DNA from: Endozoicomonas numazuensis
GTDB lineage: Bacteria; Pseudomonadota; Gammaproteobacteria; Pseudomonadales; Endozoicomonadaceae
DNA: 64,000 nucleotides
Direction of reading: 5' to 3'
NCBI RefSeq assembly: GCF_000722635.1
Contig: NZ_JOKH01000009.1
Coordinates: forward strand, 1-64,000
The notes beneath the pieces are model-generated. The model saw nothing but the letters and a program-made list of their open reading frames with translations, searched no databases and was not told the origin of the DNA. A program made the position numbers and the translations under genes. This document shows, piece after piece, positions 16,838-37,476 of the stretch. How positions within the stretch are numbered: the first letter of the stretch is position 1; each line of letters starts with the position of its first letter.

Positions 16838-17502
16838 CTATGTTGCACTTAAAGGTTGAAAGCGGAGAAACTCCATAATTTTATTACCCAATCGATCAGG
16901 TGTTAGAGTTTGAATCCCGGTTAAAGCTCTACGCCAGCCCAGGTAATGTGGTAAGTATTTTGTCGCAACCCCATGAAAAATCCCTTCTATCCAGCCCTTA
17001 AGATGGCCATGATATGCATTGACATGTTGTAAGTGAAAGATTCCATCTAAAACCCTTTTGCCAGATGATGTCACCAGCTCCTTGAAGGTGAATCCCAGCT
17101 TCCTCGCAAGCTTCTCGTGAGCGAGACTTGCATCAGCACAAACAACAGTTTCAATATTGATTCGACCATTCAAATGACGACAAAGTTCGTCTGCACTCTC
17201 GTTATCAAGAATACCATCTACAGTGTGACAGTTGCGATCTCTGGCTACCATGACTGGGACTTTCCTGCATTCAGATTTCTTATCGGAGCCTCTTTTGCGA
17301 GCAGGTCTAGGCAGACCTTTCCTCTGCCCCTTAAACGACTCACGAAAGAATGTTTCGTCGATTTCCGCTATACCACCAAGCTCTGGTGCCTGATCATGCT
17401 CAATGGCTTGCAAAAAGCGATGACGCCAGCGGAATGAAGTTCCAAGCGATATTTGGCACTGCTTGGCAGCCGGACGAAGCGTGTGAGAATGAGTCATTCC
17501 TT
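16838..17502 (-). pseudogene. IS1595-family transposase, C-terminal (catalytic) part
   Basis: About 215 residues of an ISXO2-like DDE transposase: SFRWRHRFLQAIEHDQAPEL, then GGIAEIDETFFRESFKGQRK with the first acidic residue, VVCADASLAHEKLARKLG and the HLQHVNAYHGHLKGWI region with the Asn/His/Glu-type final motif. It lacks the N-terminal zinc ribbon, which stands beyond the nested IS5-family insertion. Joining the two parts over one CTAG copy leaves the frame off by one base, so the gene probably had, or acquired, a further lesion. Confidence 0.8.
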
Positions 17503-18874: not shown

Positions 18875-20101
18875 TCATCTGCGCTCACTTACCAATTCAT
18901 TCAACAAAGTGGCGAAACGAGCTCCGAGTGCATCAAAACCATGGTTCTTTTCAACGTAGTCTCGCCCAGCATGTCCCATAGCAGCACGCTGAATTGGAGT
19001 CATCTTTACAAGCGTAGTAATAGCCTCTGCCAATGCCTCAGGATTTTCAGGTGGAACCGTAATACCTGCTTTAGCTTCTTCTATAGGATTGTTTGACGAC
19101 TCACAGGAGAAAAGTATTGGTCGCCCGCCAGCAAGGTAATCGAAGAGTTTATTAGAGCTAATACCAAATTTAAAAACAGGAGAATCGATCAAATTGAATA
19201 CAAATGCATCAGCCTCTGCCGCCAGAAAAGGGATCTGCTGCTTCGGTACTGGTTCCTCGAACTCAACACTGTCCAAATTCAACTCTCGCGCCAGTTGAAT
19301 CAACTCGGCCTTAAGCGGCCCATCACCGATTACCCTAAGACGTACGTGCCGCATTCCCGGGCGTTTTTTTAACTCGGCCATCGCTTTTAGTACGTTATTG
19401 AGTCCGTTTGCCTGACCATGGGCACCGAAGTACATTAATGTGAAGGTATCTAATGTTGATGGCTGTGCGGGTTCAGGATAGCCATCAAGTTCGACGCCAT
19501 TAGGTATCCAGACAATTTTTTGCTCAGGAATGCCGAGCGGTACAATATATTTTGCTGCCTGTGGCAACAGCACCACAATGCTATCTGCATGCTGATACAG
19601 CCATTTTTCAATAGAGCGCAGTACACTGGTAATGATGCTTTCTTCACGAAGCCTACCGAGATCTACCAGTGTTTGTGGCCACAGATCACGAACCTCGAAC
19701 ACAAATGGTACGCGAAAACGCTTAGCCAAGATTAGCCCAGCGACAGCAGTGAACGGGTGAACACTGGATCCAACGACAACACTTGGCCTGTTAAGCTCTC
19801 GTGTGACCCCTGGAATCAGTACGCGGAGCGCATATGTCAACATATTTAACATTCGTCCCCCGCCATTACCTTTGTATTGAGGGGTTCGTACCCACATAAA
19901 TGGAATGCCCCCGAAATGATCAATACGTTTTCTTTCTCCAGCCGAAAGCCGCTGACGCCCTGTATTGAGTTCAACGCTTGCCGCTATCACCGACGCACAC
20001 CAACCATGTGATAAAAGATGTCTAGCAAGACTGTAATGGCGAGTTCCACCTGCTCCCCCTGGCTCCTGGGCATAATGATTCAGAATCCAGACGTTTTTCA
20101 C
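18875..20101 (-). CDS. Glycosyltransferase family 4, WbuB-like
   Basis: A 408-residue GT-B fold glycosyltransferase. The N-terminal part has the HYAQEPGGAGGTRHYSLARHL acceptor-side motif typical of WbuB-like enzymes, VVVGSSVHPFTAV and FEVRDLWPQTLVDLG. The C-terminal part has the nucleotide-sugar binding FGISSNKLFDYLAGGRPILF with the EX7E-like region. It should add one sugar to the lipid-linked repeat unit on the cytosolic face of the inner membrane; which sugar is unknown. Its ATG overlaps the end of the wbpI-like gene by 4 bp (ATGA), showing translational coupling. Members of this branch often add the second sugar after a PglC- or WecA-type initiator. Confidence 0.87.
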   Translation of the reverse strand: MKNVWILNHYAQEPGGAGGTRHYSLARHLLSHGWCASVIAASVELNTGRQRLSAGERKRIDHFGGIPFMWVRTPQYKGNGGGRMLNMLTYALRVLIPGVTRELNRPSVVVGSSVHPFTAVAGLILAKRFRVPFVFEVRDLWPQTLVDLGRLREESIITSVLRSIEKWLYQHADSIVVLLPQAAKYIVPLGIPEQKIVWIPNGVELDGYPEPAQPSTLDTFTLMYFGAHGQANGLNNVLKAMAELKKRPGMRHVRLRVIGDGPLKAELIQLARELNLDSVEFEEPVPKQQIPFLAAEADAFVFNLIDSPVFKFGISSNKLFDYLAGGRPILFSCESSNNPIEEAKAGITVPPENPEALAEAITTLVKMTPIQRAAMGHAGRDYVEKNHGFDALGARFATLLNELVSERR

Positions 20102-21177
20102 AATTCAAAGCTCTCGATCAAACTGTTTGCGATAATTGATGACGCATTACCAGAACCATATGGCTGTATATCATCCCCTTGACTGCCAAGAGCTGAAGTC
20201 ATCGCCTCTTTTACAGTCTCAGTGTTATTAATTGGAGGCACCAACCGATTCCATCCAGCATCAACTAACTCCGTCCATTCTGTTTCGTCACGCAGTGTTA
20301 CACATGGTACTCGGTGAAAGAAAGCCTCCTTCTGTACTCCGCCTGAATCCGTAGCAATTAGACTGGCGTTTTGTTCGAGCATGACCATGTCGAGGTAACC
20401 CACGGGGTCGATGAACTTCACATTGGGCGGGAAAGCTAATCCGAAGCTTGCCAGACGGGCACGCGTACGAGGATGCAACGGTAACACGATTGTGTGCCCA
20501 AAGGCAGCAAAACCCGAGAGAATGGAGCCTAATCGTTTAGGGTCATCGGTGTTCTCTGCACGATGAATAGTAGCCAAGGTATAGGCCTTAGGCTGCAAAT
20601 CGAGCCGTTTCAGAATCTCACTGCGACTCTCTGCACGCTGACGATAATACAGCGCAGCATCGTACATCACATCGCCTACACATTGCACTGTATTGCCTGC
20701 AATACCTTCAGATACAAGATGCTGGACAGCTGTCTGGGTGGGAGCAAATAACAGGGTAGCAGTATGATCAGTCAGTACTCGATTGATTTCTTCTGGCATA
20801 CTTCGGTTAAATGAGCGTAACCCAGCTTCGACATGCGCAACCGGAATATGCAGCTTCACTGCAGCCACTGCTCCGGCAAGGGTGGAGTCTGTATCACCAT
20901 ATACCACTACCCAGTCAGGCCTCTGCTTCAATAACACCTGTTCAATGGCTTCAATCATTCGACCGGTGTTCTGTCCATGACTGCCACCTCCAATTCCTAA
21001 ATGGTGGGCTGGCTTAGGAATGCCCAGTTCGTCAAAAAACACATCGGACATATTAGCATCGAAATGCTGGCCAGTGTGGAGTATGGTTTCTGTAACACCC
21101 TTTGCAACAAAGGCGTGTGAGACCACCGCTGCCTTGATAAATTGCGGGCGCGCACCGATAATGGTGGTAACTTTCAT
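20098..21177 (-). CDS. wbpI: WbpI/WecB-family UDP-sugar 2-epimerase
   Basis: A 359-residue non-hydrolysing 2-epimerase. It begins MKVTTIIGARPQFIKAAVVS and shows HTGQHFDANMSDVFF, HVEAGLRSFNRSMPEEINR and TDSGGVQKEAFFHRVPCVTLR. WecB (UDP-GlcNAc to UDP-ManNAc) and WbpI (UDP-GlcNAc3NAcA to UDP-ManNAc3NAcA) share these motifs. The full wbpA-B-D-E set and wbpG/hisH/hisF in the same locus favour WbpI, and the ARPQFIKA start fits my memory of that branch. I chose the ATG at 21177; the open frame starts eight codons earlier with a TTG lacking support. It is coupled to the next glycosyltransferase by a 4-bp overlap. Confidence 0.85.
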   Translation of the reverse strand: MKVTTIIGARPQFIKAAVVSHAFVAKGVTETILHTGQHFDANMSDVFFDELGIPKPAHHLGIGGGSHGQNTGRMIEAIEQVLLKQRPDWVVVYGDTDSTLAGAVAAVKLHIPVAHVEAGLRSFNRSMPEEINRVLTDHTATLLFAPTQTAVQHLVSEGIAGNTVQCVGDVMYDAALYYRQRAESRSEILKRLDLQPKAYTLATIHRAENTDDPKRLGSILSGFAAFGHTIVLPLHPRTRARLASFGLAFPPNVKFIDPVGYLDMVMLEQNASLIATDSGGVQKEAFFHRVPCVTLRDETEWTELVDAGWNRLVPPINNTETVKEAMTSALGSQGDDIQPYGSGNASSIIANSLIESFEL

Positions 21178-21316
21178 AACTGACTCTTCAAAATATTTCA
21201 AGTAACTTAAACAGTTTCACTCTTCTGCCTCTCAGTTAATACTTTCATACAGAACGTACTGATCTTCTTAGGCCATCTTACCAGATGTATTTTATATACA
21301 GGCAGAACTGTTTTCA

Positions 21317-23200
21317 TCATAACCCTTTGATATATTTACGATTCATTTGCAACCAAACCTCCATTGCTAAAGGGTTAAAAATTTCCTTGAACCATATTGT
21401 TTCACGCCCATGCGATTGAGAACAATACTCATTGTAGTGAGCCAACAGCTGCTCTCGATTTATGAGATCTAGCTTGAATATCAAGGCATCTCTATGAAAA
21501 TATTGATCAAGGACTGTCTTTTTGAGATCTTTTTTTAGCCATTCACCTTGGGGATTTACAAAACCTTGCTTATCCTTTCGCCAAGTAATCTCTGAAGGTA
21601 AGTAAGGCTCCACTGCTTTGCGCATAGCGTACTTTGTCCAACCCTTCTTAATTTTAAGCTCACTTGGTGCCGATAACAGTTGTTCCATGAGTCGATGATC
21701 AAGAAAAGGCAGACGAATTTCTCTCGACCAAGCCATTGACATTTTATCTTCAAAGTGATTTAGCGTTGGAACGGAGAATCGCTCAACATCCAGAATTTGT
21801 CTTGAGGAAAGAGACTCTCCTCTCTTCAACCCTAAATTGACCGGTAAGTATTCTTTAAGAGCTGGACCAAGAATATTTCTGCGACCCCGTTGGAATATTG
21901 AAGGAAGGTATCTTTTAGCCTCAGCCCAAGAGAACTGATTGAGTATTGCACCGTTACGCCAAAAATCCCACAAAACTTTACATGCTTTAAAATAGCGCTT
22001 ACTTCTCAATAAGTCTTGAACGTAAAAGCCAAGGAATTTACGATAACCGCATAGCAATTCATCAGCTCCCTGACCACTGAGAACAACCGTAAGACCTAGC
22101 TCTTTTGCTTTCTTCATTAATAAGTAATGAGCAATATTTGAAAAGCTGCCAATAGGACTATCCGAATGAAATGTTGCTTCTTCAAGTAAAGAAAACAAGG
22201 TATCCGAGCTTAATGGAAGTTCGACTTTTTCAACAGATCTGTTCAAATGAACAGCAACCTTATCAATAAAAGGCGACTCATCAAACCTTGGGTCATCACT
22301 AACTGCAGCTAGTAAACGGCAGTGACCATTCTTCCCATTAATCTTATCTACTGCTGCAGCTATTGCTGAAGAGTCAAGACCACCTGAAAGCAGCACTCCA
22401 ACAGGGACATCACTTCTCAAACGTTTTTCCACACTGTCCAGAAAAGTGCTTCTAATCTGATCAATAAACTCATCCTCACTAACCGGCACATCGGAGATAT
22501 TATGTATGTCCCAATATAGAGATACATCTTTCTTCAGTGCTTCTCCAGAGAGGTCAATTGAAACGATGGTAGCAGGCTGTACTTGCTCAATATCAGAAAA
22601 GAATGTGTGACATGTCGTATTCAGCAACGATTGTGAAAGATATTCGCCAACAGCCTGCATATTCAAACTGAAGTTTTTCCCTGTCATTAGTAACAGTGTT
22701 TTCAGCTCAGAAGAGAAATGCAACTCTTTATCTGAAAAGTAGAAGTACAGGGGCTTTTCACCGGTTCTGTCTCTGGATAGATAAACACAATCATCAGTCG
22801 GAGAGTAATATGCAAATGCCCACATACCATTGAATCGGCGAGTGGCCTCTTCAACGCCCCAATGAACTAATGCAGCTAACACTACCTCCGTATCAGAACC
22901 ACCAGAAAATGATACGCCTTCAATTTTTTCTAATTCAGCTTTAAGTTCAAGATAATTATAAATTTCACCATTATATATAAGTAGTGCCCCCGTATCAGCA
23001 TGGTGCATTGGCTGACTACCCGCACCAGAAAGATCAAGAATTGACAGCCTCTGATGCCCAAGACCATAGCACCATAAACCCCTACTCGATTTAGCTTCTC
23101 CCTGTGCATCTGGACCACGATGTTTCTGCAGTGCACACGCCTGTTTCCATTGAGAATCAGACAAGTGCTCAGAGGAAAAATACCCAACAATACCACACAT
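21317..23200 (-). CDS. asnB: Asparagine synthetase-type amidotransferase of the polysaccharide locus
   Basis: A 627-residue class II glutamine amidotransferase. The N-terminal glutaminase domain begins MCGIVGYFSS with Cys2 as nucleophile and HRGPDAQGE. The C-terminal ATP-pyrophosphatase domain has VLLSGGLDSSAIAAAV and VVLSGQGADELLCGYRKF. In O-antigen loci such AsnB-like enzymes (WbpS, WbtH) turn a uronic acid carboxylate into a uronamide using glutamine and ATP. That fits the uronate sugars predicted here. It starts 2 bp before the stop of the upstream glycosyltransferase, so the genes are co-transcribed. A housekeeping asparagine synthetase role is less likely given the location. Confidence 0.9.
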   Translation of the reverse strand: MCGIVGYFSSEHLSDSQWKQACALQKHRGPDAQGEAKSSRGLWCYGLGHQRLSILDLSGAGSQPMHHADTGALLIYNGEIYNYLELKAELEKIEGVSFSGGSDTEVVLAALVHWGVEEATRRFNGMWAFAYYSPTDDCVYLSRDRTGEKPLYFYFSDKELHFSSELKTLLLMTGKNFSLNMQAVGEYLSQSLLNTTCHTFFSDIEQVQPATIVSIDLSGEALKKDVSLYWDIHNISDVPVSEDEFIDQIRSTFLDSVEKRLRSDVPVGVLLSGGLDSSAIAAAVDKINGKNGHCRLLAAVSDDPRFDESPFIDKVAVHLNRSVEKVELPLSSDTLFSLLEEATFHSDSPIGSFSNIAHYLLMKKAKELGLTVVLSGQGADELLCGYRKFLGFYVQDLLRSKRYFKACKVLWDFWRNGAILNQFSWAEAKRYLPSIFQRGRRNILGPALKEYLPVNLGLKRGESLSSRQILDVERFSVPTLNHFEDKMSMAWSREIRLPFLDHRLMEQLLSAPSELKIKKGWTKYAMRKAVEPYLPSEITWRKDKQGFVNPQGEWLKKDLKKTVLDQYFHRDALIFKLDLINREQLLAHYNEYCSQSHGRETIWFKEIFNPLAMEVWLQMNRKYIKGL

Positions 23201-24358: not shown

Positions 24359-25597
24359 TCAATTACTTATGCGTATTTTCTTATGAATCATATAAACTAC
24401 AAAACATAATGACATAGGCATAAACAGCATTCTGTTATCATTGAAATCACCACTAAACATGGAATTAAATATTCCCTGCACCAGAATCATCAGCACCGCC
24501 CACACATACCAGTCCGCACGAAGCACTGCCTCAATCAGAATACAGCGAAGAGCTACCGCTAAAACCACTAAAAACAATACGCAACCCAGCAGGCCTGTTT
24601 CCACAAGCAACTCGAGAATAATATTGTGAGGGTATGCCCTACCTTCATTTGCAGCAGCATACCCCCCGATACCTTTACCCCATATCGGGCTTTCGCTAAA
24701 TCGCACAAGAGCCTGACCAAAATGTTCAACACGAGCCGCTACAGATGACCCCATATCGTCTTGAGTGAAGATCACACCAATCCTGAATACTGTTTGAAAC
24801 ATTTCTTCACTAAAAACAACCAGAATTCCTATGAGCCCTACAACAAACAGGACAGAAAAAGCCATATAAAATGACTTCCAGCGATTACGTACCAGAAAGC
24901 CTCGCTTTGAAAAGAGTATAATGGCAAAAAATACAACCAAAGATATTAGAGCGGATAATGTGGGACCCCTTCCACCCGACAACAACATTAATAAGACAAA
25001 AACTCCAGCCACACCCATCCACAAGGAGAAACTGTTAAAATCTTTCCTGCAAAAATAGCGATACCCAAGAGCAATCGCGATTGCCATTCCAACTCCCAGC
25101 GTCCTGCCAAGTGCTAGATAATTAGAGCCAAAGATTGTCAAGAACCCTACCACCCCTTTCAGATAGACAATAACGGCCTCAATAGAACTAACAATTGAAA
25201 ATAGAAGTAAGTATGCCAATAATCTCTTGAGACGATGCATATCCGATGACACCACAATCAATGGTGCCAATACGCACCACGCAGTGAGTGTCAGCAGATA
25301 CGAAGTCTTAGAGACCGAATAACTGTGACCTGGCGACCATCCTATACTCACACCAACATACACAAAGAAAAGTAACACTAAAGCCAAAGGCAGAAGTATA
25401 TCCTTGGATAAAGGTCGACTCTTTAATAGCACCCAGCATGCAGCTAGTATGCTCAGCAGGAAGAAAGCAGCAGTCAGATCTACCGGCAACCAAGAAAGGC
25501 GTTCATCACCTTTGAACCTTCCTGCATATAAGTAGGCAACAAAGTAACACTCAAAGCTGAAAACTGAGGCCATAAGCCACGAAAATCGGTTCAACAT
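24359..25597 (-). CDS. wzy: O-antigen polymerase/ligase family membrane protein (Wzy)
   Basis: A 412-residue integral membrane protein with about ten to twelve hydrophobic segments and a large periplasmic loop carrying the Wzy_C motifs GGRGPTLSAL and PIWGKGIGGYAAANEGRAYPHNIILELLVETGLLG. It is the only polymerase candidate in the locus, so it probably joins repeat units on the periplasmic side (Wzy). WaaL ligases have the same domain, and the two cannot be separated by motif alone. The N-terminus MLNRFSWLMASVF has an AGG 8 nt upstream. Confidence 0.82.
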   Translation of the reverse strand: MLNRFSWLMASVFSFECYFVAYLYAGRFKGDERLSWLPVDLTAAFFLLSILAACWVLLKSRPLSKDILLPLALVLLFFVYVGVSIGWSPGHSYSVSKTSYLLTLTAWCVLAPLIVVSSDMHRLKRLLAYLLLFSIVSSIEAVIVYLKGVVGFLTIFGSNYLALGRTLGVGMAIAIALGYRYFCRKDFNSFSLWMGVAGVFVLLMLLSGGRGPTLSALISLVVFFAIILFSKRGFLVRNRWKSFYMAFSVLFVVGLIGILVVFSEEMFQTVFRIGVIFTQDDMGSSVAARVEHFGQALVRFSESPIWGKGIGGYAAANEGRAYPHNIILELLVETGLLGCVLFLVVLAVALRCILIEAVLRADWYVWAVLMILVQGIFNSMFSGDFNDNRMLFMPMSLCFVVYMIHKKIRISN

Positions 25598-25605
25598 CTA
25601 TTAAC

Positions 25606-27154
25606 CTACGGAAACACCTCATTACCCGACCCCATCGTACGATGAAACCTTAAAACTACACTTTCCATGCTTTCACCCGAACTTAGCCATTTTTTAGAGA
25701 ACCCATCAATCAGCTGCCTATTAATTGAAGAGAAGTCAGAATCGTCGTCCTCAAAATCAATCCCGGAATATTTAACGACTGATAGCTGAGATCGAGCCTT
25801 CCAGAACTGCACATCGCGTTCATTACCACTGCGCTCGACAATAGAGAAATAATCCAATATCAGCTTCTTTTGCCCACTCCAGTCACTTGCAGTAAATCTT
25901 ATCTTTGAAACATCAGAAATAGAGAAAGAAGCTTCATAGTCTGGAGAAGCATTACTTGGTGCCCAACCATCTTCATTAACAAGTGGCTGCCAAATTCCAT
26001 TCACAAGAGCATCCAACTTAAAGCTTCTGGGGTATTGGTCCCAATGAAATCTCAACTTCATCCCTTCTATATCTCGCTCCCCGTCGAACACAACAGAGAA
26101 CTCACAAGAACTTCGACTATTAAAAACGGCATAGACCTTAGGATTATACCCATGATTCTCGATTGCCTTCTCTAAGCTATAGTTCGAATCGTAGCCTGTA
26201 GTTTCAACGATTTTACTTCCGGAAGACTCGGAAGCTAAATTGCTCTCACCCTTGTAAAGGGCACGATAGGCAAGAACGGAATAGTACCTCGCAAAGATTT
26301 TTTTAAAAAACGAATCATCTGTAATTTGATACATTCTTTGTAAATATTTCAAATGAATAAAATCATAACTTTCATGAACATTTTCAACCAGTACAGGGTT
26401 TGAAAACACCGACCCAGGCTCCATTCTAAGTGCAAAGTTCATTTTCTCGGGAATTTCATAGAGAGGAAGAATTTTTTTTGTTGAGAATATTGCGCGCTCA
26501 ATTAAAGCAGAAAGCCTTTCATCCTTAAGATCCTTATTAACTTCTATCAGATTTAAAACAACCGAAATATGTGCATTTAGAACATGATCATTTGTTTTAT
26601 ATTCCTCAAAGAAAATCACATCATTTTCTTCGTATAAAAAGCCTCCATATTTAATACCAACATACAAAGGCTTAACCAACCTTCTTGCAATATCCAAATA
26701 TTTTGAGTCAAGAGTCCATCGATAAGCAAAGACAAAAATCTCAGCAATTCGAGCCTGCGTAATAGCAGAATACCACGGAGCTGTAACTCCTCGATTATTA
26801 AATTTATAAGGTATTAAAAGACCTAATTGGCTATCAACCATTTCACGAAGATACCAATCGATGATTGTAAAAAAATATCCTTTATAGTCTTCTAGAGGCC
26901 TATAACCCTCCGGAACATTATGGAAACTTGAATAGTAGTTTTTTGCATCATCCGCTATAAAAAGTGGGTTATATTGCCTTCCAACTTCCCCCCCCGTAAT
27001 GATGTAGCCTAATACCTTTCTCATCAAACTCGTCACTTCCTGGAACAGGAGGATCTGCTTTTATCCATATAAGACTAGTACTAACATCACTTGAATATAA
27101 AATAGGTGAAAAAAATAAACAAATAGCCACCATAATCCTAAAATAAACGAGCAT
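25606..27154 (-). pseudogene. Secreted D-glucuronyl C5-epimerase-like protein, frameshifted in a G8 run
   Basis: The full gene should start at the ATG at 27154, which shares one base with the stop of the paralogous gene upstream, and read a signal peptide (VYFRIMVAICLFFSPILYSS) followed by GSDEFDEKGIRLHHYGG. At 26988-26995 the coding strand has eight G; seven would restore HHYGGEVGRQYNPLF, which aligns with HNYGGSRGYQYNPLY of the paralogue. The span of 1549 nt is 3n+1. The rest (from about 26990) is intact: PWYSAITQARIAEIFVFAYR, GGFLYEENDVIFFEEYKTND and VLNAHISVVLNLIE, similar to the C-terminal catalytic region of glucuronyl C5-epimerases, then a discoidin-like beta domain (LRFHWDQYPRSFKLDALVNG, ILDYFSIVE). 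It may be a real mutation, phase variation or a sequencing error. Confidence 0.75.
26988..26995 (-). repeat. Homopolymer of eight G (coding strand) causing the frameshift
   Basis: A run of eight C on the plus strand. Seven bases would join the signal-peptide frame to the main frame of the epimerase-like gene. Runs of this length are known slippage sites in phase-variable surface-polysaccharide genes, but variation at this site is not shown here. Confidence 0.85.
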
Positions 27155-28716
27155 TAGTCTTCCTTCACGTACGGATAAGCCTGAACCCCCTCCAATCCCA
27201 AGAAGTCGAAGAGATCATTAATATCTATTTTTTTTTCTTTAAAACTAGCAACAAATCGATCCAACAACCGGTTATTCACTTGCCCTGATTGCAAGTCTTT
27301 TAACTCCTCATCGAATTTCAACCCCAAGAACCTCACAACCATTTGGTCTTGAGCTGCCTCCCATACACCCAACTCTCTTGAAGCACCAAGAGTTTCTGAC
27401 ACTGAGAAGAAATCTAACATCAATTTAGAGTGATTTGAAAAATTGGATGCTTCAAATTTAATTTTCTCAACTCCTGTTACATCTAATACAGCATCATATA
27501 GCGGTGCAGCCCCCGGCGGCTCCCAATCATTTTCAGACACAAGCTCAACCCATTTGGAGTCAACCCAACCTTTTATGGTAAATTGTCGTGGATACTCACT
27601 CCAGTGGAAGCGCAACGAAATAGACCCGACTCTTTTTTTCTCTGAAAGCTGGATCTCAAATATATTTTTCTTGCCACTATTGAAAACAGCGTAATCCTTG
27701 GGGTTCAACGAGTAGTTATCAATAGCTCGATCAAGATTATAGCTTGCATCAAACCCCGTAGAGTTCAGCAATAAAGCACCAGCTGACGCTGATACAACAT
27801 TCGCGCCCTTTTTAAATAGGTCACGATAAACCATAACAGCATAATATCGAATAAATGAATCATAAAAGAACTCGTTCCCAGTCACATGATAGAGATCTTT
27901 TAAATATTCGAGGTGCTTCAGGTCATAGCTTTTGTAGGTATTTTCGATAACCTTGGGCTTGGAAAATTTAGCGCCGGGCTGCATCATCAGCCCAAAGCTC
28001 ATCTCTTCTGGAATACCAAACAGCCAAAAGGTGCTTTCTAGAGAGGCCACTCCCAACTCAAAATACGTCTGTACCTTCTGGCTTTTAAGTATTCTGTTAA
28101 CATAATTCATATCCAGAAGTGCGGACATGTGACCGTTTAGAGTGTGGTCATAAAGCGGCTTGACATGCTGCTCAAAGAAAATAATTTCCCCCTCTCTATA
28201 CAAAAAACCGCCCTTATCCACTTCTACAAACAATGGCTCAAGTAGACTCTCCGCTGTGGAAAGGTATTTTTCATCACCACTCAATTCATAGGCGATGATA
28301 AACACCCTGGCTACTCTTGCCTGAGTAATCGCTGAATACCAGGGTGACTCGGCACCTCGAGCATCGAATTTATAGGGCACTAACAACCAATCATTCTTTC
28401 TAACCAACCAATCTGAATACCAACTGACAACATCCCAATATGCCTTTAGATAATGAGCCGCCTGAGCATCCGACTGCTCAGTGAGAAACCTATATGACTC
28501 CGAGAAACTGATAGCATCATTTGCAACATACAGAGGGTTGTATTGATAACCGCGAGAGCCACCATAATTGTGATAGCGAATCCCCTTGTCGTCGTACCCC
28601 TCTTTGCCAGGAGATGGCAACTCTACAACTTCCCATGCAGCTGAATTCGTACAAAATGTCACAGTCGATATAGAAAAGAAGATAACACCAAGAGCCTTAA
28701 ACAAATATCTCTTCAA
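27154..28716 (-). CDS. Secreted D-glucuronyl C5-epimerase-like protein with discoidin-like C-terminus
   Basis: About 520 residues. It has an N-terminal signal peptide (LKRYLFKALGVIFFSISTVT), then GIRYHNYGGSRGYQYNPLYV and an alpha-toroid-like region with PWYSAITQARVARVFIIAYE, GGFLYREGEIIFFEQHVKPL and LNGHMSALLDMNYV. These resemble the C-terminal region of glucuronyl C5-epimerases (the MAQG..., GG..F...EEYP and LNG patterns). A C-terminal domain of about 120 residues (SLRFHWSEYPRQFTIKGWVD, LMLDFFSVSE) resembles F5/8 type C (discoidin) modules. I chose the TTG at 28716 with GGAG about 9 nt upstream; the open frame before it overlaps the preceding glycosyltransferase gene. The protein is likely periplasmic or surface-exposed and acts on a uronate polymer. 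Epimerase versus lyase cannot be decided here. Confidence 0.7.
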   Translation of the reverse strand: MKRYLFKALGVIFFSISTVTFCTNSAAWEVVELPSPGKEGYDDKGIRYHNYGGSRGYQYNPLYVANDAISFSESYRFLTEQSDAQAAHYLKAYWDVVSWYSDWLVRKNDWLLVPYKFDARGAESPWYSAITQARVARVFIIAYELSGDEKYLSTAESLLEPLFVEVDKGGFLYREGEIIFFEQHVKPLYDHTLNGHMSALLDMNYVNRILKSQKVQTYFELGVASLESTFWLFGIPEEMSFGLMMQPGAKFSKPKVIENTYKSYDLKHLEYLKDLYHVTGNEFFYDSFIRYYAVMVYRDLFKKGANVVSASAGALLLNSTGFDASYNLDRAIDNYSLNPKDYAVFNSGKKNIFEIQLSEKKRVGSISLRFHWSEYPRQFTIKGWVDSKWVELVSENDWEPPGAAPLYDAVLDVTGVEKIKFEASNFSNHSKLMLDFFSVSETLGASRELGVWEAAQDQMVVRFLGLKFDEELKDLQSGQVNNRLLDRFVASFKEKKIDINDLFDFLGLEGVQAYPYVKED

Positions 28717-28744
28717 CAAAGCCAACTCCGTTAGCCTACAAACT

Positions 28745-29944
28745 TTATAAAAGAAGTTCCAATTCCCTTTCACATCGCTCCTCCCAAGTTGATAGCTCAC
28801 TCAGTGCAAACTCTTTTGCTGCTGTGACCTGCTGCTCCACGAGGGTCAGATCAACAGTCAACTTCTGCAATGCTTCGGCAATACCCTCTGCATCCACAGA
28901 GCTAGGCTCCATATAAGCCGCTTTGGGTACTGCTGCTAGTGAACCATTTATGTTCTGAGCTAAAATTGGCGTGTTTAATACCATAGTTTCAAGAAAAACA
29001 TTACCCAAATTAGAGATATTATAAAAAGACAGGCTTACCTTAGCATCACGAATCAGTGCCAAAGCTTCTTTTTTTTCTACACCAGGTATAAAATGTACCC
29101 GTTCTGTCAGTCCATGGCTCTCGGTATATTCTTTAAGCTCCTGGTAAAACTTTCTATTGTACACTGGTCCTACAAGAACCATATCAAGCTCAAGATTGAA
29201 ATCGACAACTTCCAACATTGCCTTAACAACAATGTCCTGTCTTTTCCAGTGATCAAAGCGCGCCACATAGCACGCATAGGGATTTCCAGATAAACCAAAC
29301 TTTTTGCGAATCGATTCAGCAGAGGGGAGACCTTCATTGATCTTCTCCACGCCATTTAGCCAGAAGAAAAGCGGAGAATACTTAGAACCAATCTTTTGAT
29401 ACACCTTGTCACCATGCGTACCATCATTTGTTATGACAACAGCTTTAGCAGGCAATGAAAAAGCTAAATACTCCAACGGATGCTTAAAAAACAAACTGAG
29501 CTTTGCAGATTTAATCTCATCGATAAGAAAAGTACCGTATATTCGCCTCACATTAGGTACACGTTTTACCAGTGACGTCAGTCCTGCCATAGCACCCGCA
29601 GGACCATGACCATAAAGTACATCAACCTTTTCTTTACTGCACACTTTAAGCAATGCATGCAGCAACCTTGTTGCAACAGCGATGAAATCTAGCTTTCCTT
29701 TGTAGCCAAACCCTCTAACATTGATCTTTGAACGATATTGATCAGGCAGTTTAAAGGACGATGGCACAGCAGAACCAAAGAAGAAAATGTCGATAACATC
29801 AAATCGATCATCGTTCGCCATCATCAACAAAGGATTAAAAAATGCGGGCATACCTTTAGGCTCAGGGTTACCTTCGAGAAAAAAAGGCTTTATACCTGTC
29901 CATAGGCCAGTAACATAAAGCACCTTACGCTTCGCGCTTGCCAT
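28745..29944 (-). CDS. Glycosyltransferase family 4
   Basis: A 399-residue GT-B enzyme: N-terminal KVLYVTGLWTGIKPFFLEGN and DVLYGHGPAGAMAGLTSL, C-terminal YACYVARFDHWKRQDIVVKAM, VHFIPGVEKKEALALIRDAKVSLS region and the LGNVFLETMVLNTPILAQN donor motif with the conserved glutamate. It is presumed to add one sugar of the repeat unit; the specificity is unknown. It overlaps the end of the wbpG-like gene by 20 bp, which points to co-translation. It is the third of three glycosyltransferases besides the initiating enzyme, so a tetrasaccharide repeat is a reasonable guess. Confidence 0.85.
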   Translation of the reverse strand: MASAKRKVLYVTGLWTGIKPFFLEGNPEPKGMPAFFNPLLMMANDDRFDVIDIFFFGSAVPSSFKLPDQYRSKINVRGFGYKGKLDFIAVATRLLHALLKVCSKEKVDVLYGHGPAGAMAGLTSLVKRVPNVRRIYGTFLIDEIKSAKLSLFFKHPLEYLAFSLPAKAVVITNDGTHGDKVYQKIGSKYSPLFFWLNGVEKINEGLPSAESIRKKFGLSGNPYACYVARFDHWKRQDIVVKAMLEVVDFNLELDMVLVGPVYNRKFYQELKEYTESHGLTERVHFIPGVEKKEALALIRDAKVSLSFYNISNLGNVFLETMVLNTPILAQNINGSLAAVPKAAYMEPSSVDAEGIAEALQKLTVDLTLVEQQVTAAKEFALSELSTWEERCERELELLL

Positions 29945-31079
29945 AAAACCCTTTACCTTTCAGATTAAAATGCACATTCAACGCAAGCTTGTACAACCAG
30001 CCATGTAGTCCGCTGTTGAAATACCCCTTGTAGTCCTTGTAAGCCTTAACCGGCTGATTCATCAGCACATTAAACTCTTCATCTGAAACCCCCATCTTCT
30101 TCTTGAAGAACTGAAGGTCCTTATCTTTCATAGACTCATCAGGGTAGGCATCCTCCTTCAACGCCAATAATGCTTCATCACGCGTCATCTCCCCCATGCA
30201 AATCAAGTTAGAGTAATGAGCTTTTCTCTTATCTATAGCAAACTTACGAGGCTGAATATAAGCTTGGGTAAACCGAGTGTAAATCGACTCATAGTGTTTC
30301 CCACCATAGTATACCCAGCCAAGCTTATCCTGTATGACTTTCATTGCCTCATTTTTCGAAAAGTCCACGTAATCTAGAATATTGACCACGGAGCACCGAT
30401 TCACAAAGCGGGAAAAATATAGATCCATACGTGAGAAGTGAGGATAAGTTTTCAGTTTAACCCTACCAAACTGCTTATGGACATTTTTAATCAACTTCCA
30501 GTCCATCTGACCAACCATTTCTGACCAAGCCGGCTCCATAATATATTCCATCTTAAAATTAGAGCCGTTAATGATATACCTTATCTTATAGCGCGCAGCC
30601 ATCTTGTTCAGAACTGCGTAAATTGCATGGTCTGACGGAATCTCCATCCCTGGTGTAGATGCCTTCAAAAAAGACATTTGTAGATCTCGGAACTCATCCC
30701 AATCAATCACATGTGTGTAGAGATCTATATTCAGCTTGGTTAGAGTTTTCTCGATATTCGAAACCGCCAATTCTGAATTCCATCCATTATCCAAGTGCAC
30801 TGCTAGAGGCCTTAAGCCCAGATTCTTCACAAGATAAGCGACGTAAGTACTGTCTACACCACCACTCACTCCAATGATACAGTCGTATTCTTTGCCTTGT
30901 CCTTCAGATTTTATCTTGTCGACTAGTGTATTAAGTTGCTGTGAATAAGTCTCAACGCTAGGCATTGAATCCAGCCGCTTCAAATAATTGGAACAGAACT
31001 GACAATTTCCTGTCTCATCAAATTCAATGGATGGTGCCGAAGTATCCATTACGCACCGATTACACACTTGAACACTCAT
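29925..31079 (-). CDS. wbpG: N-acetyl sugar amidotransferase, WbpG-like
   Basis: A 384-residue member of the WbpG/PseA family. The N-terminal zinc-binding cysteines are in VCNRCVMDTSAP and CQFCSNYLKRLD, and the ATP-pyrophosphatase loop is YDCIIGVSGGVDSTYVAYL. WbpG uses ammonia delivered by HisH/HisF-like partners to convert an N-acetyl group to an acetamidino group, as in UDP-ManNAc(3NAm)A synthesis of Pseudomonas O5-type O-antigen. The hisF- and hisH-like genes directly upstream support this. I prefer the ATG at 31079 (GGTGAG upstream) to the GTG at 31094, which would overlap the hisF-like gene. Confidence 0.92.
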   Translation of the reverse strand: MSVQVCNRCVMDTSAPSIEFDETGNCQFCSNYLKRLDSMPSVETYSQQLNTLVDKIKSEGQGKEYDCIIGVSGGVDSTYVAYLVKNLGLRPLAVHLDNGWNSELAVSNIEKTLTKLNIDLYTHVIDWDEFRDLQMSFLKASTPGMEIPSDHAIYAVLNKMAARYKIRYIINGSNFKMEYIMEPAWSEMVGQMDWKLIKNVHKQFGRVKLKTYPHFSRMDLYFSRFVNRCSVVNILDYVDFSKNEAMKVIQDKLGWVYYGGKHYESIYTRFTQAYIQPRKFAIDKRKAHYSNLICMGEMTRDEALLALKEDAYPDESMKDKDLQFFKKKMGVSDEEFNVLMNQPVKAYKDYKGYFNSGLHGWLYKLALNVHFNLKGKGFYGKREA

Positions 31080-31083
31080 ACCA

Positions 31084-31848
31084 CTAATTCTCACCTAATA
31101 ACTCTTCTAACTGCCCATAGGGCGGATAGCTAATCAACACCGCCTTGTGCGGCCCTTGATATACAAACATACTACCTGCCGACACGGCAGAGGCACCTAC
31201 TTTTACAGCTTTCACAAAATCATCCAAACAACGAGCACCTCCTAACGCAATCAGTGGCACATCACAAATTTCGGATGCTTTAGATATCTCCACCAAATCA
31301 TATCCAGACATTTTTCCATCTCTATCGACAGAATTGAGAAGTACCTCTCCTGCACCAGCGTTGACCGCCTCCACCAAGAACTCTTCCCACGGTTTTTTAT
31401 GAATCTTTCTTGATGCGGATGAATATAGCTTTGATTTTCCGAAGAGGTTTTTCTTCAAATCAATTGATACGACGACACTTTGACTGCCGAACTGCTTGGC
31501 AAGCTTTGTTACAAGTTCCAGTGACCCAATTGCTGCTGTTTGAACACAAACCTTCTCAACTCCTATGCTAAAAAGCTTCTTGGCATCATCTACAGTTTGG
31601 ATACCACCACCGTAGCCAACTGGCATAAAAGCCTCAGCTACAATCTCTTGCACTAGTGAGAAATTCGGTCCATTTCCAGTTCGTGTAGCCTCTATATCTA
31701 CGAGCAGCAGCTCATCCACTTCTTTCTCATTGAATATCTTTACGGCATTTCGAGGATCGCCAACGTAACTCGGCTTTTTGAAGCCAACTGTTTTAACCAG
31801 CCCCCTACCCCTTATCAACAAGCAAGGAATTATTCTAGTATGTAGCAT
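31084..31848 (-). CDS. hisF2: HisF-like ammonia-channelling partner of WbpG
   Basis: A 254-residue TIM barrel of the HisF family. The phosphate loops are recognisable (VGYGGGIQTVDDA, ALGGARCLDDF, NSVDRDGKMSGYDL). The N-terminal motif reads RIIPCLLIRGRGLVKTVGF, whereas catalytic HisF has Asp in CLDV; the cyclase aspartate (Asp11) is thus replaced by Leu, while the second aspartate (VVSIDLKK) remains. This is expected for polysaccharide-type HisF2 proteins, which only pass ammonia from HisH to WbpG. No other histidine genes are nearby. Its stop lies 4 bp before the wbpG start. Confidence 0.9.
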   Translation of the reverse strand: MLHTRIIPCLLIRGRGLVKTVGFKKPSYVGDPRNAVKIFNEKEVDELLLVDIEATRTGNGPNFSLVQEIVAEAFMPVGYGGGIQTVDDAKKLFSIGVEKVCVQTAAIGSLELVTKLAKQFGSQSVVVSIDLKKNLFGKSKLYSSASRKIHKKPWEEFLVEAVNAGAGEVLLNSVDRDGKMSGYDLVEISKASEICDVPLIALGGARCLDDFVKAVKVGASAVSAGSMFVYQGPHKAVLISYPPYGQLEELLGEN

Positions 31849-31854
31849 TAATAC

Positions 31855-32466
31855 TCACATCTCTAAAAAGTTTTTTAAAAGCGCCATGCCGAACTTGTGG
31901 CTTTTTTCAGGGTGAAACTGTACTCCTAAAACATTTTCATTCTCAACCATAGAAACAAAATCATGTGAATAGGTAGAAACGCCAGCTATATCACTTTTTC
32001 TATCACACTCTACAAAATACGAATGAACAAAATAAAACCTTTGCTCTTTTTCCTGTCCTTTCAACAAGACAGAATTAATTCCGCGCACAGTATTCCAACC
32101 CATATGCGGTATCTTCATTCCTTCAGAAAGGTCTTTGAATTTATTTGACTTTCCTTTGATCAACCCAAGCCCGGGAAGCTTCCCCTCATCGCTTGAATTT
32201 AATAACAGCTGCATTCCAAGACATATCCCCAACAAGGGAATTCCCGTCTTTGCAACCTCTAGGACAGCTTCATTCATCCCATTAGAAGTTAGGGCACTCA
32301 TACCAAAATCAAATGCCCCAACACCAGGAAGTATTACTCTATCCGCTTTCAGCAGGTCTTCAGGTCTATTCACAAGGACCGGCTCCCCACCAATATGACG
32401 AATAATATTACTCACTGACCCAAGGTTTCCTGCCTGATAATCTACCACATAAATTTTGTCAGACAT
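31855..32466 (-). CDS. hisH2: HisH-like glutaminase partner of WbpG
   Basis: A 203-residue class I glutamine amidotransferase. The nucleophile Cys is in LLGICLGMQLLL, the oxyanion-type loop is RVILPGVGAFDFGM, and the His-Glu pair is in GVQFHPEKSHKFG. It hydrolyses glutamine and supplies ammonia through the HisF-like barrel to WbpG. The position next to hisF2 and wbpG, inside an O-antigen locus and away from histidine genes, argues against a role in histidine synthesis. It overlaps the upstream acyltransferase gene by 8 bp. Confidence 0.92.
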   Translation of the reverse strand: MSDKIYVVDYQAGNLGSVSNIIRHIGGEPVLVNRPEDLLKADRVILPGVGAFDFGMSALTSNGMNEAVLEVAKTGIPLLGICLGMQLLLNSSDEGKLPGLGLIKGKSNKFKDLSEGMKIPHMGWNTVRGINSVLLKGQEKEQRFYFVHSYFVECDRKSDIAGVSTYSHDFVSMVENENVLGVQFHPEKSHKFGMALLKNFLEM

Positions 32467-33077: not shown

Positions 33078-34319
33078 TTATATGGCCTTAGCAAGTCTTG
33101 CAGATACGACTAAATACAAAAAGTAAACAAATCCATGCATAAACGATATCCTTATTACAAAATCACGTGCGGAATCTGATGCTAATGCAGAAACAACAAG
33201 TGAAACACACAGCAGGATATTTCCTACAACATCCCACTCCTGCTTTTCTGCAACAAAAAACATATAACTCAATGGACTTGATATAAATCGCATATAAAAC
33301 ATAGGTGCCAGTATACTTGCATATACCCCCGCTTCTAACCAGTTATCACCAAATACAATCTGAAATAAATCTTCAGCGAACAACAACAACAACAACATAG
33401 GAGGCAAGCCAAGTACAAACAGAACAAGGAAAACTTTACGATAAAAAACTTTTACCCCACCCGTCTCTCTATATTCTGTTACAAATTTATCTCGTAAAAC
33501 ATCAAGTAGTGCACCATTGATAAATGACAATGGGAAAACCAAAACCCTTAAGACTAATGAATACAGCCCGGCAGTCTGAGCACCGTAAAATGCAGCTAAG
33601 ACAATGTTTTGCAAGTGAGAAGTGGACATATTTAGTATTGAAGACATTGAATCAAACAGAGGGAATTTTTTATACCTTTTTGCCGATTCAAGTACCTTAT
33701 CTACAGAAACAGCAGGGATAAAAGCAATCACTTTTTTCCCACTTGCTTGTAACAATCCAATTAAACCGATAGTCTGACCAACTACTAAGCCCATCATGAG
33801 TCCACCACCAACATGCCCAAATGCAGTAGATACTTGGACTGCAGCAGTACCACCACTCTGGAAAACTCTATTAATTGCAATATTCTTATATTTCTTTTGT
33901 CGGTTCACCCAATAATAGAAATTTTGATAACAACCAACAACAAGAATACTTACTGGCAACAAATACAGCCACCCTGAAATATCATCACTCCCGAGAAGTT
34001 TTGTCAGCTCTACATTAAATAAAAAAACTGTCACCAAGGATAAAACTGAAACGCTAACAACAATCCCAAGTGAAAATATCACTATGTTAATAGCCTCATC
34101 GTCATCTTGAGGTAGCATGATAGCTTGCTCGTACCGCCCTGTAGCCAACATACTAATGATAGCAGCCAAGGCACCGTACAATGCAAATAGACCAAAATCC
34201 TCGGGAGTATAAAGTCGTGTTAATATTGGACTGACAGCTATAGGTATAGCTTGAGCTAACACTGTCCCTGTCATTAAAGTTGCGACATTTCGTGCAACTT
34301 CATTCTTAAATTTAATCAT
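33078..34319 (-). CDS. wzx: Wzx-type O-antigen flippase
   Basis: A 413-residue membrane protein with about twelve hydrophobic segments. It starts with the MATE/Wzx-like N-terminus ARNVATLMTGTVLAQAIPIA and VSPILTRLYTPEDFGLFALY, and contains STSHLQNIVLAAFYGAQTAG near the middle, typical of the polysaccharide-exporter branch of the MOP superfamily. It should flip the undecaprenyl-PP-linked repeat unit to the periplasmic side, working with the Wzy candidate at 24359-25597. It follows a 298-bp gap, so an internal promoter may lie upstream. Confidence 0.9.
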   Translation of the reverse strand: MIKFKNEVARNVATLMTGTVLAQAIPIAVSPILTRLYTPEDFGLFALYGALAAIISMLATGRYEQAIMLPQDDDEAINIVIFSLGIVVSVSVLSLVTVFLFNVELTKLLGSDDISGWLYLLPVSILVVGCYQNFYYWVNRQKKYKNIAINRVFQSGGTAAVQVSTAFGHVGGGLMMGLVVGQTIGLIGLLQASGKKVIAFIPAVSVDKVLESAKRYKKFPLFDSMSSILNMSTSHLQNIVLAAFYGAQTAGLYSLVLRVLVFPLSFINGALLDVLRDKFVTEYRETGGVKVFYRKVFLVLFVLGLPPMLLLLLFAEDLFQIVFGDNWLEAGVYASILAPMFYMRFISSPLSYMFFVAEKQEWDVVGNILLCVSLVVSALASDSARDFVIRISFMHGFVYFLYLVVSARLAKAI

Positions 34320-34617: not shown

Positions 34618-35697
34618 CTATATGATTAGTCTATCCAAAATGTATTCTTGCTCATCTTCTGATAAAGCAGGATGAAATGGCAGACTAATTACTCTTTTAG
34701 CCAACTTCTCTCCCACAGGAAGAGAAACGGTACTATCTGCTACAGCAGGCTGCAAATTAAGTGGGAGCGGATAGTGTACAGCGGTAGGAATTCCAGCGTT
34801 TTGTAAAGTTGACTGTACATATTTACGGTCTTCAACTTGTACAGTGTACTGAGCGTAAACGCTTGTGTTATGTGATTCAATATAAGGTGGGACAATATCT
34901 CTGTGTTTTATTAGCTTTTCTGTATATCGCTCTCCTATTTTTTTACGAGCTATAATCTCCTCATCAAATACCTCTAACTTACTTAATAATACTGCAGCCT
35001 GAAGAGTATCCAAACGGCTATTAACCCCAATCCGAACATGATGGTACCGCCTATCCTGCCCATGTCGGGCAATCTGCCTCAGTATTAACGCCAAGTCATC
35101 ATCATTAGTGAACATAGCTCCACCATCACCATAACACCCTAGTGGTTTAGATGGGAAAAAGCTGGTACATCCAATGGTAGAAAGTCCGCACGAAAGCTGG
35201 TCTTTATAAGTAGCACCAAAACTCTGGGCACCATCTTCAATAACTGGAAGATTATACTTACTCGCAATTGCATTTATTGAATCAAAGTCAGCGCATTGAC
35301 CATAAAGAGAAACGGGAATAATTGCTTTGGTCCGCTCAGTAATTGCTGCTTCTAATAATAAGGGGTCAAGGTTATATGTTTTAGGATCTACATCTACATA
35401 TACAATTTTAGCACCCAAAAGTGCACCAGTTTCAGCCGTAGCAATATACGAGAAGGCTGGTGAAATAACTTCATCCCCCGGCTTTATTCCTAGAGACATC
35501 AGAGCAATCTGAAGAGCATCAGTTCCATTAGCAACAGATATGCAATGTTTGACTCCAACATAATCAGCCAATCTTTCTTCAAGCTCAGTGACTTCTGGGC
35601 CAAGAATATACTTACCGTGATCCAATACACCTTTAATGCGTCGATTAACATCTTTTTCAATACGACTGTATTGAGCTTTTAAATCAATAAATTCCAT
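34618..35697 (-). CDS. wbpE: WbpE-like UDP-sugar 3-aminotransferase
   Basis: A 359-residue PLP aminotransferase of the DegT family. The beginning MEFIDLKAQYSRIEKD, HGKYILGPEVTELEERLADY and VSLYGQCADFDSINAIASKY, and the PLP lysine in TSFFPSKPLGCYGDGGAMF, match WbpE closely. WbpE adds the 3-amino group to UDP-2-acetamido-3-keto-glucuronate in concert with the dehydrogenase WbpB. The wbpA-B-D-E genes stand together here (order A, B, D, E in transcription direction), which makes the assignment firm. Confidence 0.93.
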   Translation of the reverse strand: MEFIDLKAQYSRIEKDVNRRIKGVLDHGKYILGPEVTELEERLADYVGVKHCISVANGTDALQIALMSLGIKPGDEVISPAFSYIATAETGALLGAKIVYVDVDPKTYNLDPLLLEAAITERTKAIIPVSLYGQCADFDSINAIASKYNLPVIEDGAQSFGATYKDQLSCGLSTIGCTSFFPSKPLGCYGDGGAMFTNDDDLALILRQIARHGQDRRYHHVRIGVNSRLDTLQAAVLLSKLEVFDEEIIARKKIGERYTEKLIKHRDIVPPYIESHNTSVYAQYTVQVEDRKYVQSTLQNAGIPTAVHYPLPLNLQPAVADSTVSLPVGEKLAKRVISLPFHPALSEDEQEYILDRLII

Positions 35698-35768
35698 GAG
35701 CTTTACACATATTTAAAAAGGTCACAAAGTATTCATTCATACTTCGTAACCTTAGAATTTCATTCAAT

Positions 35769-36353
35769 TTAGGATTTGGATACTTGATTACCAATAAGGC
35801 GATAAACATCTTGGGTTTTCGGGCAGATATACTCACCACTACCTTCAAGAGGCAAATCTAAACGTACCCCATATTCACTCATCCACCCTATCTGTCTTGC
35901 AGGAACGCCTGCCATAAGGGCATAGTCAGGAACATCTTTGGTAACTACTGCGCCAGCCGCTACAAATGCATACTGCCCGATTCTTGTGCCGCAGATTATT
36001 GTACAATTAGCTCCAAGTGTTGCACCACGTTTTACCAAAGTATCTAGATATTCATCCTTTCTGCTTACTGCCGAGCGAGGATTATAGACATTAGTAAACA
36101 CCATACTGGGCCCACAAAACACATCATCTTCTAGAGTAACATTATCGTAAACAGAAACATTGTTCTGAATTTTAACGTTATCACCAATCAAAACTTTATT
36201 GCCAATGAATGCGTTTTGCCCCAAGGAACAGTACTCTCCAATTTTAGCCTTGGAGCAGATGTGCACCCAATGCCAGATTCGAGTTTCCCTTCCTATTTGA
36301 GCTCCTTCATCAATTATTGCACTTTCATGTGCACTGAATAATTGTTGTGTCAT
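35769..36353 (-). CDS. wbpD: WbpD-like N-acetyltransferase
   Basis: A 194-residue left-handed beta-helix acetyltransferase. Hexapeptide repeats run from [20 protein letters not shown] to [18 protein letters not shown]; the long loop [19 protein letters not shown] is typical of the WbpD/PglB-like branch. It N-acetylates the 3-amino group of UDP-GlcNAc3NA to give UDP-GlcNAc3NAcA. The C-terminal [12 protein letters not shown] tail also fits this family. It lies 4 bp after wbpB. Confidence 0.93.
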
Positions 36354-36357
36354 TCAA

Positions 36358-37407
36358 TCAATACTCCAGTGGCAATGAAACTGTTTTTCCATCTCTCGCT
36401 GAGAGATAAGCTGCTATCAGTAATTCGAGAGACTTAAGACCTTCTCGACCATCCGTCTCTGGTTCAGCCTTACCTCTAAATGTATCAATCACATTTTTAT
36501 AGTAAAGAGGATGGCCAAAACCATATACTGAAGTTGTTTCATAATTGGCTGAATCAACCTCCTGATCATAGTCCCGGCTATCTGAAAATTGCCATTCCTG
36601 AATTTCATTGACAGCTACGCCACCAATCCTGACAGTTCCCTTCTCTCCCAGAATAGTGATTGACCCTTCCAAATTCCTCGGATAAGTGCACATAGTGACA
36701 GCCATGGATCCAAGCGCACCATTTCTCCAACGAATATTCATAACTCCAGTATCTTCTACTTCGATACTTCTATGCGTAGAGGTCATACATTGGACATCTG
36801 AAACCGGGCCAATCAGCCACTCCATTAAATCAACGTAGTGACTTGCTTGATTCATAAAAGCCCCACCATCAAACTCCCAAGTTCCACACCATTTTGCGCG
36901 GTCATAGTACTCTTGTGGTCGAGTCCAAAATACATTCAGATGCACCATATGGATCTTGCCAAAACGGTTTTCATCCATTGCCCGTTTCAGTAACTGTAAA
37001 GTGGTATTTCTACGATTTTGTTTTACAACAAACAATCGAACTCCTGCTTCATCACACGCCTTCACCATTTTTTGACCATGTGACCACCTCGTAGCCATTG
37101 GCTTTTCGCTAATAACATGAACACCGGCTTCTGCAGCTTTTACAGTTTGTTCAGGGTGAAGTCCACTAGGCGTACACAAAGAAACAGCATCTAGATCCTC
37201 TCTGGCCAACAACTCTTCAAGTTTCTGATATCCTGGCACTTGATATTCGGCTTTAGCCTTTTCCAAAGCAGATGAATCCGTATCGCAGACAGCTACCAAT
37301 TCAAGATCACTGCTATGGCGCTGAAAGGCTTCTCCATGTTTAATGGAAATCCTGCCACACCCCACTAAAGCAACTCTTATTTTTCTGTCTGTTACGATGC
37401 GAAACAT
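36358..37407 (-). CDS. wbpB: WbpB-like UDP-GlcNAcA 3-dehydrogenase
   Basis: A 349-residue Gfo/Idh/MocA oxidoreductase. The N-terminal Rossmann motif is VALVGCGRISIKHGEAF, the EKP motif is HVISEKPMATRW, and the catalytic lysine/histidine region is GGAFMNQASHYVDLMEWLIG. WbpB oxidises C3 of UDP-GlcNAcA with NAD; in Pseudomonas it is coupled to WbpE, and NAD is recycled with 2-oxoglutarate. It stands between wbpA and wbpD on the same strand. Confidence 0.93.
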   Translation of the reverse strand: MFRIVTDRKIRVALVGCGRISIKHGEAFQRHSSDLELVAVCDTDSSALEKAKAEYQVPGYQKLEELLAREDLDAVSLCTPSGLHPEQTVKAAEAGVHVISEKPMATRWSHGQKMVKACDEAGVRLFVVKQNRRNTTLQLLKRAMDENRFGKIHMVHLNVFWTRPQEYYDRAKWCGTWEFDGGAFMNQASHYVDLMEWLIGPVSDVQCMTSTHRSIEVEDTGVMNIRWRNGALGSMAVTMCTYPRNLEGSITILGEKGTVRIGGVAVNEIQEWQFSDSRDYDQEVDSANYETTSVYGFGHPLYYKNVIDTFRGKAEPETDGREGLKSLELLIAAYLSARDGKTVSLPLEY

Positions 37408-37476
37408 AGTTTTTCCTTTTAATAACCTTTAAATCAACCGTTCATAGATTGCAAAACTTCTATCTCTTCAACCTGT

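Follow-up and report, generated by a model that had tools for sequence, protein, structure and literature searches.

A tandem pair of PF06662 proteins in an amino-uronate O-antigen locus of Endozoicomonas numazuensis and its putative role in C5-epimerisation

The DNA studied here is the first 64,000 nucleotides of contig NZ_JOKH01000009.1 of Endozoicomonas numazuensis, referred to below as the window, and two of its genes, here named Epi1 and Epi2, form a tandem-duplicated pair within an O-antigen locus. Both proteins match the C5-epimerase family PF06662, and they make up a real and unusual pair: the enzyme family is known, but the active site diverges, a module has been added and the substrate is probably new. 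The best reading, to which we incline with some reserve, is that they are exported C5-epimerases which would convert D-ManNAc3N(Ac)A, an N-acetylated 2,3-diamino-mannuronate, to L-GulNAc3N(Ac)A, its L-gulo isomer, on the O-unit or on the polymer. If this is true, editing the stereochemistry of the O-antigen after sugar synthesis would be a cheap surface change requiring no new nucleotide-sugar genes. Bacterial O-antigens with L-gulo amino-uronates are known.

Family, fold and reading frames of the pair

The two open reading frames (ORFs), at 25606-27036 and 27154-28800 of the minus strand, are adjacent and their products 39% identical, in agreement with the neighbouring paralogues described by the initial annotation, whose named sequence motifs are present. 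The resemblance to C5-epimerases that it proposed is borne out by profile and by PDB sequence matches, those of Epi2 being weak, and the fold of Epi2 also bears it out. Hidden Markov model searches gave the two proteins 101.9 and 92.6 bits against a PF06662 gathering cut-off of 23.3, so far beyond it that the similarity is not due to chance, and no other Pfam family exceeds its cut-off in either protein. The (alpha/alpha) domain of the predicted Epi2 structure superposes on the glucuronyl C5-epimerase GLCE, so that the model has the GLCE fold, and among the matches listed the GLCE entries lead the remaining structures by at least 6 Z units. These entries are human 6hzz/6i01/6i02 together with 4pw2/4pxq, which we take to be zebrafish GLCE; the identity of GLCE to Epi1 and Epi2 is 15-16%, and the pair also differs from it in its extra C-terminal beta-sandwich, its predicted amino-mannuronate substrate and its bacterial O-antigen locus.

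The key residues of human GLCE are E499, Y500, N510, Y560 and Y578 (PMC13308652). Their equivalents were read from PDB alignments and from an 11-row alignment, which includes two 95% identical copies of the phage protein and in which every relative exceeds the PF06662 cut-off. The equivalents of N510 and Y578 are conserved in all 11 rows. Neither Epi1 (four of five) nor Epi2 (two of five) holds the complete catalytic set, and the name "D-glucuronyl C5-epimerase" is for this reason not used for the pair, whose activity is only putative. With E145, Y146, N154, F201 and Y224 at the five positions, Epi1 is the likelier catalyst; Epi2, with Q and H at two of them, may be an enzyme with altered properties or else serve as a partner subunit.

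As for the exported state, the initial annotation had given signal peptides to both proteins, which holds for Epi2 alone. Epi2 (27154..28800, minus strand) counts 548 amino acids from GTG at 28800, and its likelier start is TTG at 28716, which provides a hydrophobic leader in frame with the epimerase domain. The stop codon of Epi2 overlaps ATG 27154 of Epi1 (25606..27154, minus strand) as TAATG, and translation of Epi1 probably begins naturally at this ATG, from which a leader of hydrophobic character (2.57 on the hydrophobicity scale used) and a stretch parallel to Epi2 follow until the frame closes at 26969. The epimerase domain lies in another frame (PF06662 E 4e-29 on ORF 25606-27036), and the two frames meet at a run of eight G (G8, 26988..26995, minus strand). 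The break may be an assembly error, a fixed pseudogene or a variable tract. G8 is not rare in the genome, where 116 overlapping 8-mers were counted and the base composition of the window would predict about 80, and this genome-wide excess is not decisive as a sign of phase variation. Given that the assembled frame is broken at this run, the isolate may have the modification switched off or variable.

Each protein also carries a C-terminal module (Epi1, 25828..26262; Epi2, 27388..27822; minus strand), and the two modules are 40% identical. As to the proposed likeness to F5/8 type C domains, PF00754 has no match in Epi1 or Epi2, whether whole or as the module alone, and the Epi2 model does contain a beta-sandwich (strands 371-481; predicted local distance difference test, pLDDT, of 68-93 in ten-residue blocks and 51 in the last block) that is discoidin-like by model shape only, no Pfam family matching it. 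Among relatives introduced below, the module of genome G220 scores 27.2 bits and phage protein P0001 18.9 bits (E 0.0017), both below the PF00754 cut-off of 28.2, and a 95% identical phage copy (L022) has no match at E 0.01. When compared by profile, the isolated modules of the window pair and of the phage and G220 proteins match weakly (probability 5.4, 46 columns), and full-length comparison extends into the module (probability 99, E 3.9e-18, 327 columns). Profile searches of the PDB with the modules gave nothing convincing, the best match of the phage/G220 module being an endo-beta-N-acetylglucosaminidase D entry at E 0.22. A discoidin-like identity is a plausible hypothesis for the module. 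The LKA1 phage tailspike, which is an O5-antigen lyase, likewise has a discoidin-like domain at its end, with carbohydrate binding as its presumed role (PMC5701251).

The locus and the predicted substrate

The assignment of the pair to a locus for amino-uronic acids was confirmed, with a nucleotide-sugar dehydrogenase, an aminotransferase, an acetyltransferase, a UDP-sugar 2-epimerase and HisH/HisF/WbuX amidination genes all found; the coordinates that follow are on the minus strand. The pair lies, as the initial annotation had placed it, between a Wzy-like polymerase (Wzy_C, 24359..25597; PF04932 E 1.1e-13) and a glycosyltransferase upstream of Epi2 (28745..29944; PF00534 E 1.5e-16). Next come a WbpG/WbuX-like amidotransferase for an acetamidino sugar (29925..31094; TIGR03573 299.2 bits, cut-off 203.2), a HisF2-like acetamidino modification protein (31084..31848; NF038364 331.7 bits, cut-off 310), a HisH2-like glutaminase (31855..32466; TIGR01855 222 bits, cut-off 105.4), a Wzx-like flippase (33078..34319; PF13440 E 1.7e-25) and, by profile matches, WbpE-, WbpD-, WbpB- and WbpA-like genes for UDP-2,3-diamino-uronate synthesis (34618..38790). 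On the other side of the pair are a WbpI-like UDP-sugar 2-epimerase of the WecB/WbpI type, acting from gluco to manno (20098..21201; TIGR00236 311 bits, cut-off 210.15), and an AsnB-like amidotransferase, possibly for uronate amidation (21317..23200; TIGR01536 399.6 bits, cut-off 267.1), which suggests that some uronates are perhaps amidated as well. Further glycosyltransferases and a Pgl/WbpM-type set also have profile matches in the locus. The Wbp names of the locus genes (WbpA/B/D/E and WbpI) are our presumptive assignments.

As judged from profiles alone, the gene set of Pseudomonas aeruginosa O5 (WbpABDE, WbpI, HisH/HisF/WbpG, Wzx and Wzy) has its counterpart here in full. The O5 O-antigen contains 2,3-diamino-mannuronates (PMC5701251). 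Because the locus holds the gene set expected for these sugars, the substrate of the pair, read from the neighbouring genes, is likely a 2,3-diamino-mannuronate rather than glucuronate. Editing after export would fit the Epi2 leader and the gene context. In such a scheme the repeat, still linked to its lipid, would be flipped by Wzx to the periplasmic side, where the (alpha/alpha) domain would bind a stretch of chain and remove the C5 proton of a 2,3-diamino-2,3-dideoxy-D-mannuronate residue; the proton would be returned on the opposite face to give the L-gulo isomer, in repeats that Wzy may or may not yet have joined, and the C-terminal beta-sandwich might help to hold the chain.

Relatives in bacteria and phages

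With the own genome counted each time, matches to PF06662 occur in 3 of the 38 genomes sampled from the taxonomic family, in 8 of the 369 from the class (four being strong matches) and in 3 of the 398 from the phylum, and Epi2 as query matched 5 of 391 genomes of the order; a strong match means E < 1e-20, a boundary set after the list was seen. The suggestion that such editing would be unusual in an O-antigen locus therefore stands as regards the rarity of the family in the phylum, but not within the class of the window, where family members recur in such loci. Strong matches in the class come from eight genomes (G000, G018, G026, G110, G220, G428, G437 and G676), in seven of which the PF06662 gene adjoins genes of amino-mannuronate synthesis. 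A Wbp-type locus surrounds it in five, namely the own genome, G018, G220, G437 and G676; the locus of G018 is complete, and those of G220, G437 and G676 are seen in part. In G026 and G110 the order is WecB, WecC, a protein of 1290-1304 amino acids with two glycosyltransferase stretches, and then the PF06662 gene, which lacks a hydrophobic start (L037:2590-10212 and L039:2768-10497); this order predicts a polymer of ManNAcA (N-acetylmannosaminuronate) or GulNAcA (N-acetylgulosaminuronate). At the GLCE positions the complete catalytic set is kept in G026, G110, G018, G676 and G437, and the residues are E, V, N, Y, Y in G220 and K, F, N, Y, Y in G428. WbpB co-occurs with all four strong matches of the class sample (3/3 without the own genome, P 1.6e-4).

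Beyond the class the association was not seen in the DNA read. The phylum matches G1107 (3.1e-25) and G884 (3.9e-6) have no locus protein in the stretches read, of 20 and 12.6 kb. In nine Cloacimonadota and Nitrospirota loci no WbpI or WbpA/B/D/E match was found in the DNA examined, so the Wbp link does not reach those loci, and in four Nitrospirota loci (L015-L018) an AsnB-like gene directly follows the PF06662-type gene, the L015 copy being asparagine synthase by Pfam. The family tree gives good support to Epi1 with Epi2, to the phage protein with G220, to both WecB/WecC-type rows and to groups of close relatives in Nitrospirota and in Cloacimonadota, its deep branches being unresolved. No relative of Epi1 or Epi2 was found in the plasmid collection.

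A tblastn search of Epi1 against 50,697 phage records matched 15, all with P. aeruginosa as host and with 22% identity to Epi1, which are mutually identical over the 211 bases tested. The phage protein, QBI79947 (MK511001.1, L021, 7641-9323), has 560 amino acids, a leader, PF06662 at E 4.1e-35 and a weak PF00754 match at E 0.0017, and IMG/VR holds seven contigs with copies about 95% identical. Together with these prophage copies it resembles the Epi pair in its leader and PF06662 domain, the weak PF00754 match lying in its C-terminal part; it differs in its low identity, its longer C-terminal part, its residence in a phage and its residues (E, M, N, Y, Y), which keep E499, N510, Y560 and Y578 with M for Y500. 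At least two kinds of surroundings occur, with a neighbouring tailspike of the LKA1 gp49 kind (PF22442; L021 2.6e-149, L028 3.5e-148) or with flanking lambda-type tail genes and endolysin (L024). L022, L023, L025, L026 and L027 are 98-99.5% identical to L024 over 9.4 to 13.7 kb, and L021 and L028 share 2.2 kb and 3.3 kb with it. Of the 22 phage copies, one (L028:5980-7684) has a G run at which its frame breaks, and intact copies exist, with 14 of the 15 phage records checked over 211 bases only. Among the sequences compared, the closest to the phage protein is the epimerase-like protein of G220 (34% over 527 residues, support 100/99), whose gene sits in a largely complete O5-like locus in which the WbpB-type match is weak. 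The phage and prophage proteins (L021, L022-L028) are annotated as hypothetical. A search of PHROGs assigned no family to the Epi pair or to the phage protein, and viral contigs searched with the Epi1/Epi2 alignment gave 68 pattern matches, none of them a relative.

Serogroup O2 of P. aeruginosa comprises O2, O5, O16, O18 and O20, the figure of its repeats shows guluronic as well as mannuronic acid, and the clusters of the group are described as identical, with the difference between O5 and O16 ascribed to genes that must be located outside them (PMC4815439). The phage protein is a candidate, by sequence and context, for the enzyme that makes the guluronate/mannuronate difference within the serogroup, and the relatives found are named candidates for this gap. 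Among the literature matches listed, whose coverage leaves out most subscription journals, no proposal links a C5-epimerase to O-antigen or phage serotype conversion. More tentatively, and short of an even chance in our estimate, PF06662 in the class of the window may be mainly an amino-mannuronate C5-epimerase family, turning D-ManNAcA or D-ManNAc3N(Ac)A into L-GulNAcA or L-GulNAc3N(Ac)A (where members have a leader, on the repeat or polymer after export) and exchanged between phages and O-antigen loci, with the phage member as the missing O2 enzyme and with G runs making some copies variable.

Alternative readings and known systems

Several observations weigh against an exported amino-mannuronate epimerase. 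Epi1 in this assembly is no single translatable exported protein, its epimerase ORF being in a second frame, and Epi2, reading Q, H, N, F and Y, keeps only two of the GLCE positions, with Q and H for E499 and Y500. Both proteins differ from GLCE in F for Y560, which none of the other nine aligned rows shares. The Epi2 model is of low confidence around F269 and up to Y292 (pLDDT 47-50). The absence of a strongly hydrophobic start in G018, G026, G110, G428 and G437 argues that export is not general. Over all class matches to E 1e-3, WbpB is present in 4/8 (3/7 without the own genome, P 0.005); in the order sample it is present (E 1e-60) in one of four non-own matches (P 0.07), none of which is G220. 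Four genomes of the same family have WbpB and no PF06662 match (G004, G005 and G035 at 78-82% identity, G014 at 44%). Finally, no sugar-locus gene lies within the 20 kb read around the PF06662 gene of G428, which has WbpB on another contig; in the vicinity of this protein (L041:9523-10356) are a protein with an inverse-autotransporter beta-domain and ORFs without a match.

One rival explanation is a decaying or non-catalytic pair, with Epi1 a pseudogene, Epi2 a chain-binding pseudo-enzyme and the O-antigen all-D, an explanation that we hold to be unlikely, though worth serious weight. The Epi1 frame break and the three replaced positions of Epi2 speak for it, as does the complete catalytic set of G026 and G018 in the same genus or family. 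On the other hand, 476 codons of Epi1 and 548 of Epi2 are free of stops, any loss would be recent given the four catalytic positions of Epi1, and the TAATG overlap still couples both genes. A polysaccharide lyase or hydrolase directed at the O-chain would share the (alpha/alpha) fold, but the lead of GLCE in the structure search, PF06662 as the sole Pfam family and the conserved N510 and Y578 equivalents make it improbable. Slighter still is the chance of true glucuronyl C5-epimerases turning glucuronate of the repeat into L-iduronate. Its precedent is the assayed Bermanella marisrubri enzyme, which acts on glucuronate of desulfated heparin-type chains (PMC13308652, PMC4432689); against it, the natural polymer of that enzyme is stated to be unknown (PMC4432689), the genes of the locus are of the WbpABDEI type, and among the 22 ORFs scanned a second nucleotide-sugar dehydrogenase was not found.

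That Bermanella protein (RED65_08024, 37% similar to human GLCE) is a bacterial C5-epimerase likened to the pair by description, not by sequence, and the relatives reported here hint at substrates for the family, the natural polymer of its assayed bacterial enzyme being stated as unknown (PMC4432689). Halobacterium salinarum Agl32 likewise epimerises a uronate within a bound glycan, whereas its model has no GLCE catalytic residues at equivalent positions (PMC13308652). Regarding the alginate epimerases, the likeness of AlgG and AlgE to the predicted reaction is the conversion of D-mannuronate to L-guluronate on the polymer, with AlgG in the periplasm (PMC4432689). By Pfam, a beta-helix domain was not found in Epi1 or Epi2, which sets the pair apart from AlgG and AlgE. 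Both alginate enzymes are beta-helix proteins.

As to mobile elements, an IS1595-type transposase domain (16838-17497) lies inside the locus and an IS30 transposase (39168-40160) at its edge, and Rfam gives two matches to group II intron domains at 7981-8271 of the window (132.7 and 59.4 bits).
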